NCBI GenBank assembly: GCA_025360125.1
Contig: JANYCU010000047.1
Coordinates: 1 to 64,000, forward strand
DNA length: 64,000 nucleotides
DNA from: Armatimonadota bacterium
GTDB lineage: Bacteria > Armatimonadota > Fimbriimonadia > Fimbriimonadales > Fimbriimonadaceae
Reading direction: 5' to 3'
Made by a program: the position numbers and the translations under genes. The notes under the pieces are model-generated. The model was given only the letters and a program-made list of their open reading frames with translations, did not search any database and was not told the DNA's origin. Shown piece by piece: positions 4,333 through 64,000 of this stretch. Numbering within the stretch: position 1 is the first letter of the stretch; the number at the start of each line of letters is the position of its first letter.

Positions 4333-5688
4333 ATGATTGCCCTTTCCTTATTGTTAGCGACAAGCTTTGCTAGCCCCGCCCAAAAAATTATTAACCTCAG
4401 CATCGCGGATAACCGAGTGATGCAGCACTTGCATGAACTTTGCTATGACGTTGGTGCACGCCCAACGGGCTCGCCAGAGTTACAAAAAGCGGAAAAGTGG
4501 GCCCTCGCCAAATTTAAGTCTTTCGGCTATAACAACGCCCACCTTGAGAAATGGGCTGACGTTCCGGTTGGTTTCCAACGGGGACCCAATAATTCGGCGA
4601 AGATGATTTCGCCAAGACGTGCCGAAATGCAGTTCTCCACCAACTGCTGGATGCCGGGGACCCAGGGTCCCTTGCAAGGAAGAGTCGTCATTGCACCTAA
4701 GTCGATGGAAGAATTGGTGTCGATGAAGTCCTCGCTGAACGGTGCTTGGGTTCTTTCGGATGCCCCGGTGAGCATGCGCGGCGCAAACATCGCGAAAGAG
4801 AGTGTTGACTTGATGAAGGCGATCGAAGCATCTGGCATCAATGGTGTGGTTTTTGGATCGAAAAGCGACCTTTTGCACACCCACGGAACGTGGAAAGACA
4901 AGACTTTTGAGAATCATCCCACGAATGTCCAGGTGACCGTTCGAAAAGCCGATTGGGACATGTTGGCGGAGAATGTGAGGGCGGGCAAAGACACGGTCGC
5001 GGAATTCAATATTGACAATCGATGGATCAAGGGACCGATCGAAGTCCACAACGTTGTTGCTGAAATCGTCGGCACTGAGTTCCCTGACCAAATCGTCGTC
5101 TTGGGTGGCCATTTGGATTCTTGGAACTCGCCAGGATCTCAGGGGGCGAACGACAACGGAACGGGTTCCAGCTCAACGCTCGAGGCTGCCCGCTTGATTC
5201 TGAAGAGCGGGGTCAAGCCGAAGCGAACGATTCGCTTTATTCTTTTCTCGGGAGAGGAGCAGGGTTTGCTTGGCTCAACCGAATACGTCAAGCAACATTT
5301 GGGCGAGCTGTATCGTATCAGTGCGTGTATCGTTGACGATGGCGGCTCGAATTACGAGTCGGATGCATCGGGATATGCGTCCTGGACCCCGTTCTTTCAG
5401 CCTTCGTTTGACTTGATGACTAAAGCGTTTCCTAAGATGCCGATGACGTTTCATCCATCGACTAACTACGATGCAAGTGGCGGCAGCGACCAAGCGTCGT
5501 TTTGGGCCAAGGGAGTTCCTTCCGTATTCATGGGTAAGGCAGGTACCCAGCAGTACCTTCATATTTGGCACACCCAATATGATCGCTACGAGGAAGCTGT
5601 GCCGGAATATCTGAAGCAAGTTGCGACCAGCATGGCCGTCGTCAGCTTTAACATTGCGAATGCCGATTCGATGATGCCAAGAAAGTGA
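4333..5688 (+). CDS. Secreted M28-family zinc aminopeptidase
   Basis: A 451-residue metallopeptidase beginning with a signal peptide (MIALSLLLATSFASPAQ). The M28 metal ligands and catalytic acid are in order: His in GGHLDSW (about residue 260), bridging Asp in GANDNGTG (about 273), the Glu pair in SGEEQG (about 306-307), Asp in VDDGGSN (about 334) and the distal His in LHIWHTQYD (about 412). The region before the catalytic domain (about residues 110-240) resembles the PA-domain insertion seen in many M28 enzymes. It probably trims N-terminal residues from peptides outside the cytoplasm. The stop overlaps the GTG start of ppc by 4 nt (GTGA), so the two are likely translationally coupled although their functions are unrelated. 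Confidence 0.93.
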   Translation: MIALSLLLATSFASPAQKIINLSIADNRVMQHLHELCYDVGARPTGSPELQKAEKWALAKFKSFGYNNAHLEKWADVPVGFQRGPNNSAKMISPRRAEMQFSTNCWMPGTQGPLQGRVVIAPKSMEELVSMKSSLNGAWVLSDAPVSMRGANIAKESVDLMKAIEASGINGVVFGSKSDLLHTHGTWKDKTFENHPTNVQVTVRKADWDMLAENVRAGKDTVAEFNIDNRWIKGPIEVHNVVAEIVGTEFPDQIVVLGGHLDSWNSPGSQGANDNGTGSSSTLEAARLILKSGVKPKRTIRFILFSGEEQGLLGSTEYVKQHLGELYRISACIVDDGGSNYESDASGYASWTPFFQPSFDLMTKAFPKMPMTFHPSTNYDASGGSDQASFWAKGVPSVFMGKAGTQQYLHIWHTQYDRYEEAVPEYLKQVATSMAVVSFNIANADSMMPRK

Positions 5689-8342
5689 AAAATTCGGCGT
5701 TTCTCGGACTGGACCCAACTTCGTATGGCTTATCACCGGAGCTAAGCGCCGACATACAACTTCTCGACAACGTCTTGGGCAAGGTTTTGCTTGAGCAAGA
5801 AGGACCTTGGATACTTGAATCGGCCCGTCGGCTGGTGCACGATCCGTCATGTTCAATTTCTGACCTTGATTGCCCGGAACTCAAAACTCCGGAAGGGCTT
5901 CGTGAGTTCGGCAAGGCGTTTACGATGTTCTTTCAGCTAGTCAATTCGGCTGAGCAGAAAGAGATCGTGCGGGTCAATCGGGCACGACATCCTCGACGGG
6001 AGTCGATTCGCGAAACCGTCCAGAAGATTTTCGATGCTCATGGCCGAGAAGTCTTGCTCGCAACGGTCAATCGACTTTATATCGCTCCAACCCTGACCGC
6101 TCACCCGACCGAGGCGAAGCGGAAAGTCGTTCTGGACAAGTTGAGGGAAGTCTCGCATTTGTTAGCTGAGCAGCACGGATCCAACGACTTGAACGCACCT
6201 CTGGATGCGGGTTCGGATACGGCTAGCGAACTTGAAAACGTGATCATTGAGCTTTGGCATACCGACGAAATGCGGTCGCAGCGCCTCACGGTGGATGAGG
6301 AAGTTCGGAATGCGCTGTATTTCTTTGATCGCACCATTTACGAAGTCATTCCTTGGCTTTATCGGGACCTAGAGGACGCGCTTGAGCACGTTTTAGGTGA
6401 GCGAATCGCGGTTCCGGAGATCATTCGCTATCACTCGTGGATTGGGGGAGACCGAGACGGAAATCCAAATGTCACGGCGGCGGCAACTCAAGACGCAGCC
6501 GCCACCATGCGGCGCATGGTTGTTCCGCGGCATCGCGGCGAGATCGAGAAATTGCGATGGGAATTTACCCAGTCGACGAAGTTTGTTGGCGAAGTTGTTG
6601 CGGTTCGAGAGGTCACGACGAAATTCGAGCAGTACCTGACTGATGCCGAGAAAGAACGATACAGCCAGGAGCCGTACGTTTTGCTGCTGCTCGGACTGTT
6701 TGGGTACCTGGCTACCGAAAACGTCAATCTCGACGAGGTCGAGGCGGGACTTCTCGCGGTCCAACATTCTATTGCTTCGACGGAAGGAAGCAACTTGTCG
6801 CTTCGAAGCAGTTTGCAGGATACGATTCGTCGGCTTCGGGTGTTTGGAAACTACTTAGCGAATATCGACATTCGACAACATTCGAAGGTTCACGAGCGGG
6901 CGATGGGGCTTCTCTTGGCTCAGGCGGGGATTCTTAGTTCGTCTTTGGATTATACAAGTCTTTCCGAATCGGAGCGAATTGAGCTTTTGGTTCAGGAGAT
7001 TTCGAGCCCGCGACCTCTGATTCGGACGGCGGTGGATGAGGCATTGACGACCGTTCTTGGCCCGATTGAGCTGATGGCAGGTAATTCGTCGATGGGAACT
7101 TACATCACGTCGATGTCCACCTCGGTCAGCGACATGCTCGAGGTCATGCTATTCCTCAAAGAGGAAGGCGTGCTGGCGAACAAGCCAAATATTGTTCCGT
7201 TGTTCGAAACGGTTGACGACCTTCAGCATTGCGGTCCGTTGCTTCGGCAGATTTTTGCTTTGCCAGTTTATCGCGCTCACCTTGATGCGATTGGCTACCA
7301 AGAAGTCATGTTGGGCTACAGCGACAGTAGCAAAGATGGCGGGTATTTGGCGGCGAACTGGGCACTTCAATCCGCAATGCGAGAAATTGCGGCGGTTTCG
7401 GCGGAGACCGGAATTCCGATTCGTTTATTCCATGGTCGCGGCGGCACAGTCGGGCGTGGTGGGGGCAGGGCTTCGCAGGCGATTTTGAGTCAACCGAAGG
7501 GTGCATTTAATGGTTCGATTCGATTTACTGAGCAGGGTGAGGTTATCTCGTTCCGCTATTCCCTTCCGGCGATTGCCCACCGTCACCTTGAGCAGATTGT
7601 CTCGGCTTGCTTGCTCGCGACTGCGTCGCCAAATGAGCGAGATTATGATGCGGAATTCGAGGGAATAATGGAAAGGCTTGCGGACGATTCGCGAGCGGCG
7701 TACCGTAAGTTGGTTTACGAGACTCCGGGATTTTGGGAGTTTTACACCCAGGCGACTCCGATTGATCACATCAGTTTGTTGCCAATTGCTTCTCGGCCAG
7801 TTTATCGGCCAGGCAGTGCGGCCGAGGGGGTTGAGGGCCTTCGAGCGATTCCGTGGAACTTTGCTTGGGTGCAGAGCCGGGCCTTGTTGGTCGGTTGGTA
7901 TGGGGTCGGAACTGCCTTGTCTGGCTATCTGGCTTCGGGCGGAGAAGCTACGTTGCGGACGATGTACAAGGAGTGGGCGTTCTTCCGAACGGTCATCGAT
8001 AATGCTCAATTGGAGTTGGTGCGGGCGCATATGGAGACGGCGACGCTTTATGCTTCACGGGCGACAGACCAGGCGATTTGGGGAACTATTCTGCATGAGT
8101 TTGAATTGACTCGCATGTCGCTTTTGGCAGTTACGGGCGAAAATGACTTGCTGGAGAATTCGAAGGTTATTCGCCAGACGGTTGCTTTTCGGAATCCGAT
8201 GACTTTGCCGATTAATAAGTTGCAGATTCATTTGATGGACCGTTGGGAACACCTGAGCGACGAAGAGAAGCAGGGAACATGGCGCGAGGCCATGCTCCAG
8301 TCGATCGCAGGGATTGCGGCGGCGATGCAGAGCACTGGTTAG
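5685..8342 (+). CDS. ppc: Phosphoenolpyruvate carboxylase
   Basis: An 885-residue enzyme, full length for bacterial PEP carboxylase, which adds bicarbonate to phosphoenolpyruvate to make oxaloacetate and so refills the TCA cycle. The active-site motif TAHPTEAKRK (catalytic His near residue 140), the second signature GYSDSSKDGGYLAANW and the glycine-rich loop FHGRGGTVGRGGG are all present, and the C-terminus ends in the family-typical MQSTG. The start is GTG at 5685, overlapping the stop of the M28 peptidase gene. With pyruvate kinase later in the window this marks ordinary central carbon metabolism. Confidence 0.98.
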   Translation: MKNSAFLGLDPTSYGLSPELSADIQLLDNVLGKVLLEQEGPWILESARRLVHDPSCSISDLDCPELKTPEGLREFGKAFTMFFQLVNSAEQKEIVRVNRARHPRRESIRETVQKIFDAHGREVLLATVNRLYIAPTLTAHPTEAKRKVVLDKLREVSHLLAEQHGSNDLNAPLDAGSDTASELENVIIELWHTDEMRSQRLTVDEEVRNALYFFDRTIYEVIPWLYRDLEDALEHVLGERIAVPEIIRYHSWIGGDRDGNPNVTAAATQDAAATMRRMVVPRHRGEIEKLRWEFTQSTKFVGEVVAVREVTTKFEQYLTDAEKERYSQEPYVLLLLGLFGYLATENVNLDEVEAGLLAVQHSIASTEGSNLSLRSSLQDTIRRLRVFGNYLANIDIRQHSKVHERAMGLLLAQAGILSSSLDYTSLSESERIELLVQEISSPRPLIRTAVDEALTTVLGPIELMAGNSSMGTYITSMSTSVSDMLEVMLFLKEEGVLANKPNIVPLFETVDDLQHCGPLLRQIFALPVYRAHLDAIGYQEVMLGYSDSSKDGGYLAANWALQSAMREIAAVSAETGIPIRLFHGRGGTVGRGGGRASQAILSQPKGAFNGSIRFTEQGEVISFRYSLPAIAHRHLEQIVSACLLATASPNERDYDAEFEGIMERLADDSRAAYRKLVYETPGFWEFYTQATPIDHISLLPIASRPVYRPGSAAEGVEGLRAIPWNFAWVQSRALLVGWYGVGTALSGYLASGGEATLRTMYKEWAFFRTVIDNAQLELVRAHMETATLYASRATDQAIWGTILHEFELTRMSLLAVTGENDLLENSKVIRQTVAFRNPMTLPINKLQIHLMDRWEHLSDEEKQGTWREAMLQSIAGIAAAMQSTG

Positions 8343-12711: not shown

Positions 12712-13455
12712 ATGATTGCGGTTTCTCTCTTCTTGGCTTTGCAGGTGCCGGTTATTACGCCGATTGTCCCTCAGGAGAAAGGATTCTTTGACAAGCGCAC
12801 CGACTATATGGGAATCCCGATTCGGACGAATAAAGTCGTCTCGGACGAAGCAATGATTGAGGCATGGCGCCGGATGGGAATGGTGCTGAAGAATATGCCG
12901 AACGCGATTGCCAATTTGGTTAATGCGCACGCTGAGCTTGATATTATTGGGAAAGACCAAGTGACTTCGGACTTGCCGGAATTTCGGCATTTGAAGGGGA
13001 AGCCGTTTCAGGGCAAGCCAACCGAGAAGGTGACCACGATTGACGAACGGACCCGGGGCATGGGTGGACTGACTTGGTCGTGCGGCGAAGAAAACTTGCT
13101 GAAGTTGAAAACGGACCGCTATTTTGGGCGTGACATCTGCGTTCACGAAATGGCACACACGTTGCAGAACTACGGGCTGTCGCGGGACATTCAGGACAAG
13201 ATCATTGCGCACTTTAAGGCGACGATGGCGAAGGGGCTTTGGAAGGGGGCTTATTCGTCATCGGACAAAGACGAGTTCTTCGCTGAGTTGACGATGTGGT
13301 ACTTTGGCACCCACGGAGACATGCCGAAAGGTGCCGGACTTCCAGTTCCGGGACCAGAGGCGTTTAAGGCTTACGATCCCGAATCGTTTCAACTGCTCGA
13401 CGACATCTACTCGGGTCGCATGCCCGTATCGCTTCGTAAAAGGCGCCAGAGCTAA
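12712..13455 (+). CDS. Single-domain gluzincin-like metallopeptidase
   Basis: A 247-residue exported protein (signal MIAVSLFLALQVPVITP) homologous to each half of the divergent neighbour. It keeps GEENLL, HEMAH (His145, Glu146, His149 from this start) and a downstream Glu in EFFAELTMWYFG (Glu192), the order of a gluzincin zinc site. Shared landmarks are DLPEF, ERTRGMGG, AKGLWKGAY and AYDPESFQL. ATG 12712 was chosen over the ORF start at 12676 because the signal peptide begins there and GGAAAC precedes it. Its stop overlaps that of the convergent M61 gene by 4 nt. Substrate not deducible. Confidence 0.8.
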   Translation: MIAVSLFLALQVPVITPIVPQEKGFFDKRTDYMGIPIRTNKVVSDEAMIEAWRRMGMVLKNMPNAIANLVNAHAELDIIGKDQVTSDLPEFRHLKGKPFQGKPTEKVTTIDERTRGMGGLTWSCGEENLLKLKTDRYFGRDICVHEMAHTLQNYGLSRDIQDKIIAHFKATMAKGLWKGAYSSSDKDEFFAELTMWYFGTHGDMPKGAGLPVPGPEAFKAYDPESFQLLDDIYSGRMPVSLRKRRQS

Positions 13456-34423: not shown

Positions 34424-34873
34424 AATCTCATCCGGTTTGGTCCTCACCGACTTCTCTCGCCCTCGCGCGCAGATGCCTTTTTGGCATCTGCTTCGCAGGG
34501 GACCTCAGAGAAGCATCTCGCTTCGCGAGGAAGTGATCTAGACCAGGAACGACACGTTTCATTGGTTGGATGGCTAGTCACTCCGAATCATACGTTCTTT
34601 CCACTTTTACCGACGTTCTCGGACGCTATCGACAGAACGAGACCTTCAGCGAGTGTCTGGTAAACGGAGTTGATTTAGGAATTACACTTCGACTTCTCAA
34701 TTCTTTGTTCGTCAATGACCATACTGAAATGTATAGCTTCTGTGATTGATTTCACAACACTATCATACGGGTATAAACGACCATTGACATAAATACTTTA
34801 TCCATCCTGACTGCCTGGAAACTTTTTTAACTATTGTCGATACACTTGTGTTATCATTTCATTTATAACGACA
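34424..34873. other. Non-coding region between IS110 and the cassette
   Basis: I see no gene. An 8-bp stem CAGATGCC/GGCATCTG with a T5 loop lies at 34470-34490 and a small CTCGC/GCGAG stem near 34527-34539. The last 130 nt are AT-rich and should contain the cassette promoter, but no clear -35/-10 pair stands out. Confidence 0.5.
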
Positions 34874-35242
34874 ATGAAGTCAAGAGCCAATGATGGACCG
34901 AAGATTGACATGCACTTTTGGCGAAAGAGCTTAAATTTTCTTGGAATGCTATACGCCATTGGAGTTTGTGCCTGGATTGGAATTCAAAGTTGGAACCTTT
35001 GGTATCGAGAGGAAGTTAGGCTTCTACTAATCTCCCGACAATCACAACAGCAAGATCTATCTTTAATTACGCTGGGCCAAGAAAGTTCTGGCGGACACTT
35101 CACATATTGTCCAGCAACTTCTCGCTTTGGGCGCGACATGCTCGCTCAAGTCAAGGCACCGGCGTCGGCGCCTCTGGTCCTAATTATTGATCCGCTTACT
35201 CGGGCTGGGGAGGGGGGGGGGCAGATCCACAGTCGTCACTGA
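34874..35242 (+). CDS. N-terminal fragment of VKOR/thioredoxin fusion protein (frameshifted at G10)
   Basis: A 122-residue frame with one membrane segment (LNFLGMLYAIGVCAWIGIQSW) and then a soluble part containing APLVLIIDP. It ends just past a run of ten G (35212-35221) in a low-complexity tail (GEGGGQIHSRH). With nine or twelve G the frame would join the next ORF and give one protein of about 442 residues, with the join reading AGEGGGRSTVVTDTAKI. The soluble part then looks like a small extracytoplasmic domain placed before the membrane domain. Confidence 0.7.
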   Translation: MKSRANDGPKIDMHFWRKSLNFLGMLYAIGVCAWIGIQSWNLWYREEVRLLLISRQSQQQDLSLITLGQESSGGHFTYCPATSRFGRDMLAQVKAPASAPLVLIIDPLTRAGEGGGQIHSRH

Positions 35243-61758: not shown

Positions 61759-62781
61759 ATGATATCTGAAGAAGGTTTGGCGCGTCGCCAGATCATTCAA
61801 GACTTGCCAAAAGTCGAGCTCCACGTTCATCTCGAAGGTTCAATCCAACCGGAAACCCTCCTTCAGCTCGCTTCGCGAAATGACATTTCGTTGCCCGCTT
61901 CGGACGTCGCCGGATTGCGCGAATGGTTCAAATTTCGCGACTTTAACCACTTCGTCGAAGTCTATGTTGCGGCTTCAAAGTGCATTCGAAAGCCAGAAGA
62001 TTTGGAGCTGATCGCCGAGGAATTTGCCCGGGGGCAGGCAGCGCAAAACATTCTTTACACCGAGGCGCATTACACCGCGATGACGATTTTCCGATACGCC
62101 GGAATTCCATTTGACGAGCAGTTGGACGCCCTTCATCGAGGGTTTGCGAAGGTTCCGGAGTCTCCGGTGAACTTAATCTTGGATATTGTTCGCGGCTTTC
62201 CGGTCGCCGAGGGCGAGCAGATTGCCCGGTGGTGCATCGATGGAATGGGTAAGGGTGTAGTTGGGATTGGACTTTCCGGTTTTGAAGGCACGGACCCAGT
62301 CGCGGTCCACAAACACTCGTTCAAGGCCGCCAAGGATGCCGGGTTGAAATGCTCGGCTCATGCGGGCGAAACGGGTGGCGCATCGGCAATTCGTGAAGTG
62401 CTTGCCGACGCCTACGCTGATCGAATCGGGCACGGAGTTCGCTGTATCGAAGATGGCCAGCTCGTCAAAGAACTGCGAGATAAGCAAATCCACCTTGAGG
62501 TCAATCCTACGAGTAATGTCAGCCTCGGGCTGTACCCGTCGCTCGCCGACCACCCGCTGCCAATCCTGATGGACGAGGGGCTAAGCGTCTCGATCAACTC
62601 GGATGATCCTCCCTTTTTCAACACGACGTTGACCGATGAATGGATCCGCTGCGCCGAAGAGTTCCAATTCAGCACCGACATTTTGTTTAGCCTTTGCCAA
62701 GGGGCTGTAAACAAATCGTTCCTTGACGATGCCAAGAAATCGGTTTTAAGAAAGCAGATCTCGGAAAGTTGGGACACCTAA
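61759..62781 (+). CDS. add: Adenosine deaminase
   Basis: A 340-residue zinc enzyme that converts adenosine to inosine in purine salvage. Ligands and catalytic residues are in order: HVHLEGS (about 22-28), HAGE (about 200-203, metal His and catalytic Glu), GHGVRC (about 223) and SINSDDPPFF (about 281, metal Asp). The C-terminus ISESWDT and the stop codon recur 841 bp downstream, flanking a toxin-antitoxin pair. Confidence 0.96.
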   Translation: MISEEGLARRQIIQDLPKVELHVHLEGSIQPETLLQLASRNDISLPASDVAGLREWFKFRDFNHFVEVYVAASKCIRKPEDLELIAEEFARGQAAQNILYTEAHYTAMTIFRYAGIPFDEQLDALHRGFAKVPESPVNLILDIVRGFPVAEGEQIARWCIDGMGKGVVGIGLSGFEGTDPVAVHKHSFKAAKDAGLKCSAHAGETGGASAIREVLADAYADRIGHGVRCIEDGQLVKELRDKQIHLEVNPTSNVSLGLYPSLADHPLPILMDEGLSVSINSDDPPFFNTTLTDEWIRCAEEFQFSTDILFSLCQGAVNKSFLDDAKKSVLRKQISESWDT

Positions 62782-62783
62782 TT
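62757..62783. repeat. 27-bp direct repeat, copy 1 (3' end of add)
   Basis: It covers the last codons and stop of add (ISESWDT) and matches 63598-63624 at 24 of 27 positions. Confidence 0.9.
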
Positions 62784-62791
62784 GCTACCCA

Positions 62792-63145
62792 TTAAATAGA
62801 CTGCAAGAATGCCACCGACACATGGGCCTCACGCTTTTCAGATTGGGGCCGTGCGCGAATAATGATTTCAATATCTTGATCGAGGCTATTAAGGATTCTC
62901 AGAAGTCGATCTGACGAAAAACCTTCAGTTATTCCACGGAGGAGTTTTGAAACTTTCGATTGGTCGATTCCAATCATTTTTGCCAAATCAGTTTGGTTGA
63001 CTCCTTTCGATGCCATTGCTTTGCTGATAGCGTGAACAAGCTGTGCTTTTGCCAGCATTTCGTCAGCATTCTCAAATCCGAGATCAGCGAAAACATTTCC
63101 ACTACTGGACTCAATTAGGATTTCTTCTTGTTTTTGTTTTGCCAT
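62792..63145 (-). CDS. HigA-like XRE-family antitoxin
   Basis: A 117-residue protein with a helix-turn-helix at about 38-95: LVHAISKAMASKGVNQTDLA, then KMIGIDQSKVSKLLRGITEG and LLRILNSLDQDIEI, the shape of the XRE/HTH_37 antitoxins paired with HigB/Gp49-type toxins. It lies downstream of the toxin gene and overlaps it by 31 nt. It should neutralise the toxin and repress the operon. Confidence 0.9.
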   Translation of the reverse strand: MAKQKQEEILIESSSGNVFADLGFENADEMLAKAQLVHAISKAMASKGVNQTDLAKMIGIDQSKVSKLLRGITEGFSSDRLLRILNSLDQDIEIIIRARPQSEKREAHVSVAFLQSI

Positions 63146-63486
63146 TCTTTGTGCCTTCCTTCCGCAATCTTCAATCTGCCTTTCACCTTGTCAATATCCT
63201 GTTTCGGAGTAGAAATGCCCGATTTCGACTTCTTTTGGAAGCAATGAAGAACGTAGACTGCCTCCTCAAACTTCACGGTATAGACCGCTCGGTAAGTACC
63301 TCCATCAAAATCTTCAACGACCTCTAGAACTCCTGCTCCTCCAAAGTCCTTCGAATGGGATGATTTCTCGCCCAATTGCGCTAAATCGAGTGCGAATCCT
63401 ACTGCCTGCTTAACCTCTCTTGGAAAATCTAGAATATCTTTTCGACTTGAACCAATCCATTCCAAGGGTTTACGTTCACTATTCAT
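63115..63486 (-). CDS. HigB/Gp49-like toxin (RelE superfamily)
   Basis: A 123-residue protein of the phage-derived Gp49-like/HigB-2 family. Visible marks are LEWIGSSRKDILDFPREVKQ, GGTYRAVYTVKFEEAVYVLH and the C-terminal CFQKKSKSGISTPKQDID, where the strand-end Lys/Phe/Lys residues resemble the mRNA-interferase site of RelE-fold toxins. Toxin-first order with a HigA-like antitoxin fits the higBA layout. The pair is flanked by copies of the add 3' end. Confidence 0.9.
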   Translation of the reverse strand: MNSERKPLEWIGSSRKDILDFPREVKQAVGFALDLAQLGEKSSHSKDFGGAGVLEVVEDFDGGTYRAVYTVKFEEAVYVLHCFQKKSKSGISTPKQDIDKVKGRLKIAEGRHKEWQNKNKKKS

Positions 63487-63597
63487 TTTAGGCTATTTCT
63501 GGCTTATTTTACACGAAATTTTGTCCATTCCTTAATGTAGTGGGTCGGTTTACAACTGATTGGACCAAATAGGATTTCGAAACGGCTAGGCAGTTCC

Positions 63598-63624
63598 GAT
63601 TTCGGAAAGTTGGGACGCCTAGTT
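63598..63624. repeat. 27-bp direct repeat, copy 2 (relic of an add 3' end)
   Basis: It still reads ISESWDA and TAG in the add frame. The three differences from copy 1 are ATC/ATT, ACC/GCC and TAA/TAG, so it looks like the end of a related add gene. Confidence 0.88.
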
Positions 63625-63630
63625 CTCCGA

Positions 63631-64000
63631 TTACCAACGAATTAGGTTGGCGCCCCAAACGAGCCCCGCACCAAATCCGACGGTAAGGACCAACATGCCT
63701 GGCTTGAGTCGGCCGCTATCGCTGGCTTCGTATAGAGCCAGAGGTATCGATCCGCCGCTCGTGTTTCCATATTTGTGAACGTTGACAAACACTTTCTCCG
63801 AAGGAAACTTAAATCGCTCGGCTGCGGCTCTAATGATTCTCATATTGGCTTGGTGAGGAATGAATAGATCGACCTCAGAGGCATCGACTCCGGCTTCAGC
63901 CAGGACCTTCTCGCACGCATCGCCCATCGCCTTGATGGCGAACCGATAGACCTCGTTACCCATCATTTGGATTCCGTACTTCATACCTTCTGGCGCAACT
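63631..64000 (-). CDS. fabH: 3-oxoacyl-ACP synthase III (C-terminal part; gene runs off the right edge)
   Basis: The last 120 or so residues of the condensing enzyme that starts fatty-acid synthesis from acetyl-CoA and malonyl-ACP. Catalytic His is in [12 protein letters not shown] and Asn in [16 protein letters not shown], followed by the C-terminal [17 protein letters not shown]. The catalytic Cys and the start lie beyond position 64000. The frame continues upstream to the window edge (VAPEGMKYG), so no internal start should be called. Confidence 0.95.

Follow-up and report, generated by a model that had tools for sequence, protein, structure and literature searches.

How did a toxin-antitoxin pair come to lie between two copies of the 3′ end of an adenosine deaminase gene? 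The arrangement is found in a 64,000-nucleotide window (G000:C57:1-64000), the whole stretch of DNA analysed here, which comes from a draft genome of 4.13 Mb in 58 contigs. Fimbriimonadaceae records are among the relatives of this genome, which is thus probably one of the Armatimonadota. An initial annotation had read it as a HigBA-like pair carried by a mobile unit, which entered at the end of add and restored the gene with a copy of its own.

A 27-bp direct repeat at the end of add

The adenosine deaminase gene add (61759-62781, plus strand; PF00962, E 2e-77) is intact, encodes 340 residues and ends in ISESWDT. It converges with fabH, the gene for β-ketoacyl-ACP synthase III, the 3′ part of which occupies 63631-63999 on the minus strand (PF08541, E 4e-36). 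The toxin and antitoxin genes lie between the two, both on the minus strand. The last seven codons and stop of add, with two further nucleotides, form copy 1 of a direct repeat of 27 bp (62757-62783). Copy 2 (63598-63624) stands just before fabH and reads ATT TCG GAA AGT TGG GAC GCC TAG, or ISESWDA-stop. The copies agree at 24 of 27 positions with a spacing of 841 bp, and in length, position, identity and reading the repeat is exactly as annotated. The annotation further remarked that the differences keep the reading frame. This is true and uninformative: all three are single-base transitions, two of them silent and one changing an amino acid, which makes frame-keeping trivial.

The repeat is beyond chance: the only direct pairs in the whole window that agree at 24 or more of 27 positions are this repeat and a heptamer array at the left end, and 20 Markov simulations gave no direct pair at 24/27 for distances below 2 kb. 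The array itself is a tandem run of CTGAAAG at the window's left edge (positions 1 to about 130). Nor is the repeat a dispersed one. In the 4.13-Mb genome, TCGGAAAGTTGGGA has exactly two occurrences, the two copies of this repeat, the 14-base core likewise has no others, and the 23-bp core was found nowhere else in the genome and in none of 84 genomes of the family, where up to two mismatches were allowed. The longest exact run common to both copies is 15 bp; this is short for the usual assembly artefact, so an error of assembly is an unlikely source of the repeat.

The edge of the repeat is sharp on the add side, and anchored extension is significant on neither side (P = 0.06 toward fabH, 1.0 toward add). 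The stop codons of fabH and of the antitoxin gene are both TAA on the minus strand, a few bases apart relative to the copies, and a gapped extension to them is suggestive (P 0.06). Most of copy 2 is contained in a potential stem-loop at 63587-63622 (CTAGGC-A-GTTCC ... GGGAC-GCCTAG; z -2.06 for the 144-nt region) that may serve as a terminator for fabH, and which a terminator scan did not detect. Its outer stem, CTAGGC/GCCTAG, takes in two of the three positions at which the copies differ.

The two copies could instead match by coincidence, or a terminator-like stretch could have been copied locally behind fabH and the antitoxin gene on the minus strand: each copy lies 6-8 bp past a minus-strand stop codon, and copy 2 forms the stem-loop. 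We consider this extremely improbable, since the simulations produced no chance pair of such quality, copy 1 lacks the left arm of the stem-loop, and the match coincides with the codons and stop of add.

Identity and composition of the toxin-antitoxin pair

The toxin gene (63115-63486, minus strand) encodes 123 residues that match Gp49/DUF891 of the RelE superfamily over the full length of the profile (PF05973, E 4e-22), with 60% identity to Tad of plasmid pAMI2. It is followed, with an overlap of 31 bp, by an antitoxin gene (62792-63145, minus strand) for a 117-residue HTH_37 protein (PF13744, E 1e-22) that is 39% identical to pAMI2 Ata. A Gp49/DUF891 toxin (COG4679) encoded first, with an overlapping gene after it for an HTH antitoxin of the COG5606 kind, is what defines type II systems of the Tad-Ata group, of which pAMI2 tad-ata is the archetype (PMC3832669). 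On these profile matches we assign the pair to the Tad-Ata type (Gp49 + HTH_37), a cousin of HigBA within the RelE superfamily. The toxin matched no HigB-family profile; Gp49 was its only match in Pfam, and NCBIfam returned none. The name HigBA-like thus holds at the level of the superfamily, and HigBA in the strict sense is rejected.

The closest described system for the predicted pair is that of pAMI2 (COG4679-COG5606; PMC2701414), which it resembles in the leading toxin gene, the overlapping antitoxin gene and the identity of both proteins. It differs from the pAMI2 system in being chromosomal, in a Fimbriimonadaceae-like genome, and in being bracketed by gene-end repeats. Toxins of the Tad-Ata group have been proposed to be mRNA interferases of the RelE superfamily (PMC2701414).

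At 42.9% GC, the insert between the copies (62784-63597, 814 bp) lies below the window as a whole (51.5%), and its toxin and antitoxin genes have 36-43% GC at third codon positions, where add and fabH have 58-61%. This composition makes the pair look imported, and we read it as probably acquired horizontally; within the genus its homologues are patchy.

An origin in a larger integrative element that had its own integrase, internally deleted down to the toxin-antitoxin pair and left as a CIME-like relic between attL and attR, would agree with the company such genes keep: Tad-Ata pairs are characteristically carried by plasmids, phages and ICEs, the pair here has matches in 448 plasmid records, and a 2007 title in the references of PMC3832669 names homologues in SXT and phage N15. 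CIMEs and elements integrated at gene 3′ ends share with this locus the direct repeats and the restored gene end. The unit here, unlike them, is below 1 kb, has no integrase or relic of one, and has a site unseen elsewhere. The pair also fills the unit, with 8 bp to copy 1 and about 110 bp to copy 2, and no trace of other element genes remains in the 814 bp, which makes descent from a larger element very unlikely.

The add-fabH junction in relatives

The toxin-antitoxin pair is absent from the junction in all five genomes of the genus that have add and fabH linked. Three of them (G001, G015 and G018) have a compact junction, add and fabH sharing 20 bp; compact junctions were seen only in these species, which are 59-63% identical in Add, and in none that is the same or a sister species. 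The comparison of junctions that the annotation had called for yields junctions without the pair, at the distance of other species. The two nearest species have spacers unrelated to the insert: about 224 bp and geneless in G009, and about 637 bp with a 165-residue orphan frame in G002. That frame (L139, G002:C4, 7521-8018) has no family match, so the G002 junction holds another insert or a new gene. No closer match came up in a scan of the contigs of GTDB 220.

Joined across the repeat, the flanks give an intact add of unchanged length that ends in ISESWDA-stop, 8 bp from the stop of fabH. The junction reconstructed in this way from the letters is compact and resembles the compact junctions of relatives. 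A duplicated add end was sought in 24 relatives and found in none. Relatives without the pair are also without a second copy, which supports insertion of the pair at the end of add with duplication of that end. The observations that would have spoken against insertion, namely both copies without the pair or no empty form anywhere, were not made among the relatives. Insertion is well supported, together with duplication of the 3′ end of add.

Which of the copies is older can be approached through the three differing bases. At all three, copy 2 equals the add end of G002 (ATT, GCN, TAG) and copy 1 differs from it; against G009 the two copies tie. Copy 2 is therefore the likelier original end of add and copy 1 the likelier derivative, which would have arrived with the insertion or changed afterwards; the polarity rests on three bases. 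The initial annotation had taken copy 2 for the incoming copy, which the outgroup comparison reverses. It had also traced copy 2 to the end of another add gene. The copies are far closer to each other (24/27) than either is to the nearest known add (17/27 and 14/27), and three transitions, two of them silent, cannot show a donor gene, which leaves that donor unsupported; a simple duplication fits.

A derived copy 1 could also have come with a longer stretch. A relative that already had the order add-pair-fabH may have donated it by homologous recombination with a crossover within add, the duplication having arisen elsewhere. In keeping with this, the last 23 aligned residues of Add match G002 and G009 at 8 positions each, compared with 12 of 23 between those two. 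The difference at the C-terminus is small, C-termini are variable anyway, and the windows upstream have no break; import would moreover only mean that the duplication arose in some other cell. We regard it as decidedly unlikely.

Routes of insertion

Several familiar element types were considered for the unit. No inverted pair joins its two ends, and a DNA transposon is rejected on that ground; there is also no transposase in the unit. Inspected by eye for attC cores (RYYYAAC/GTTRRRY), both copies carry GTTGGGA, which mismatches the last Y, and the antitoxin gene is followed by only about 10 bp; an integron cassette is, by the same inspection, unlikely. The 27-mer has no inverted arms by eye, and dif modules, which need XerC/XerD-like sites, are set aside as well.

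The annotation had noted that the 841-bp unit lacks an integrase, which is correct of the unit and of the whole contig, and had proposed that it moved in trans or by homologous recombination. In the first case the 27 bp at the end of add would serve as an att site for a tyrosine integrase encoded elsewhere, and the unit would be a minimal non-autonomous element. The locus has the classic form of such integration, a gene 3′ end repeated directly and the gene thereby restored, and the genome has 13 Phage_integrase matches, so integrases are available. None of the 13 is on this contig, the repeat site is absent elsewhere in the genome, in the 84 family genomes and in viral contigs, and the duplicated add end is missing from all 24 relatives. 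Neither an integrase within the element nor an att site used by an integrase-bearing element was found in the unit, the contig, the genome, the family or the viral contigs. This evidence counts against the proposal, and we hold an integrase acting in trans to be unlikely.

A known precedent comes closer. Restriction-modification (RM) genes insert with long, variable target duplications and with no known mobile element (PMC3874152; PMC3031569). This "insertion with long target duplication", for which those papers cite Nobusato 2000 and Furuta 2010, shares with the present locus selfish addiction genes, the lack of a transposase or integrase, and direct copies of the target on both flanks. It differs in that the genes are RM and not toxin-antitoxin genes, in duplications in the range of 100 bp and not 27 bp, and in having been demonstrated by comparison of close genomes, where the comparison here is with more distant species. 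A target sequence directly duplicated around a selfish unit that has neither transposase nor integrase is what we observe.

We regard a target-duplicating or Campbell-type insertion of a foreign Tad-Ata pair at the add end as the best explanation, and on balance a probable one. The pair would have entered a tight convergent junction (add, 8 bp, fabH) in a single event by which the 27 bp at the end of add came to be present twice; the incoming side would have given add its new end, copy 1, and displaced the old end, copy 2, toward fabH. Most likely a small piece of DNA went in by a single crossover (Campbell-type) or by an insertion that duplicates its target, and either a brief stretch of identity or a staggered cut at the end of add was used, as has been described for RM genes. 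Such an event could survive because neither add nor fabH is damaged, and the addiction pair would subsequently have maintained itself in place. Several observations weigh against this explanation: the compact junctions belong to species only 59-63% identical in Add, the nearest species compared, G002 and G009, have other spacers at the junction, the duplications of the RM precedent are, at about 100 bp, longer than 27 bp, other Tad-Ata pairs of the genus lack such a duplication, and the polarity depends on three bases.

The other Tad-Ata-like loci retrieved have no repeat within 500 bp that is clearly above shuffles, in a scan whose automatic span was too wide for the window's own pair and missed its known repeat, which a separate scan of the window recovered. 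With no such duplication at the other pairs, the route is apparently not a property of the pair itself. One of them, in G007, lies between two perfect 24-bp repeats; these belong to a REP-like family (ATCGGCTCCCAGCCGATGAAC) with more than 100 places in G007:C1 (for example 2804761 and 2805765), and the locus is rejected as a second case. REP-like repeats also occur in the genome studied here, as inverted pairs about 640 bp apart (G000:C56:5918-6591 and 34558-35222). A frame inside the first of these pairs resembles, by eye, a REP-associated (Y1-type) transposase.

A survey of 865 kb from the genome studied here and of 12 retrieved loci gave two look-alikes. Outside the window, a 21-bp direct repeat with one mismatch (G000 C57:103917-103937 and 104772-104792; L176:11917-11937 and 12772-12792), its copies 855 bp apart, brackets a DUF4259-like gene of 259 codons between redoxin and GNAT genes. 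The repeated sequence is the start codon of the redoxin gene with the bases preceding it. These neighbors are kept together in no relative, so there is no empty site for comparison. In G012 (L137, G012:C16), a 19-bp direct repeat with one mismatch (4968-4986 and 5900-5918, 932 bp apart) surrounds a gene for an AbiEii-like nucleotidyltransferase (toxin) beside a Tad-Ata-like pair. Taken with the add locus, these could point to a common, undescribed route throughout the genus, by which small cassettes (about 0.85-0.95 kb) with addiction or defence genes enter at the edges of genes and duplicate 19-27 bp of the target. Isolated short local repeats number about 20 in the 865 kb; several lie inside genes or match one paralogue to another, so that one such repeat is poor evidence on its own. 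Both look-alikes are weaker than the add case and serve as leads only. We give such a genus-wide route little credence.

The ccdO157 islet between folA and apaH (PMC7167474) offers another parallel: a lone pair that relatives lack, set between conserved genes, with other sequence at the site in some of them. The add locus has a duplicated gene end, of which the relevant part of that paper makes no mention; the same part terms the insertion mechanism of such islets unelucidated. The locus described here is ordinary in its parts and mildly unusual in the clarity of its scar. By analogy with the RM genes, this pair and its 27 bp of repeated target would add a further case to the insertions with long target duplication. 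The readable scar provides a concrete junction for comparison across strains, which makes the question of how such pairs integrate testable.
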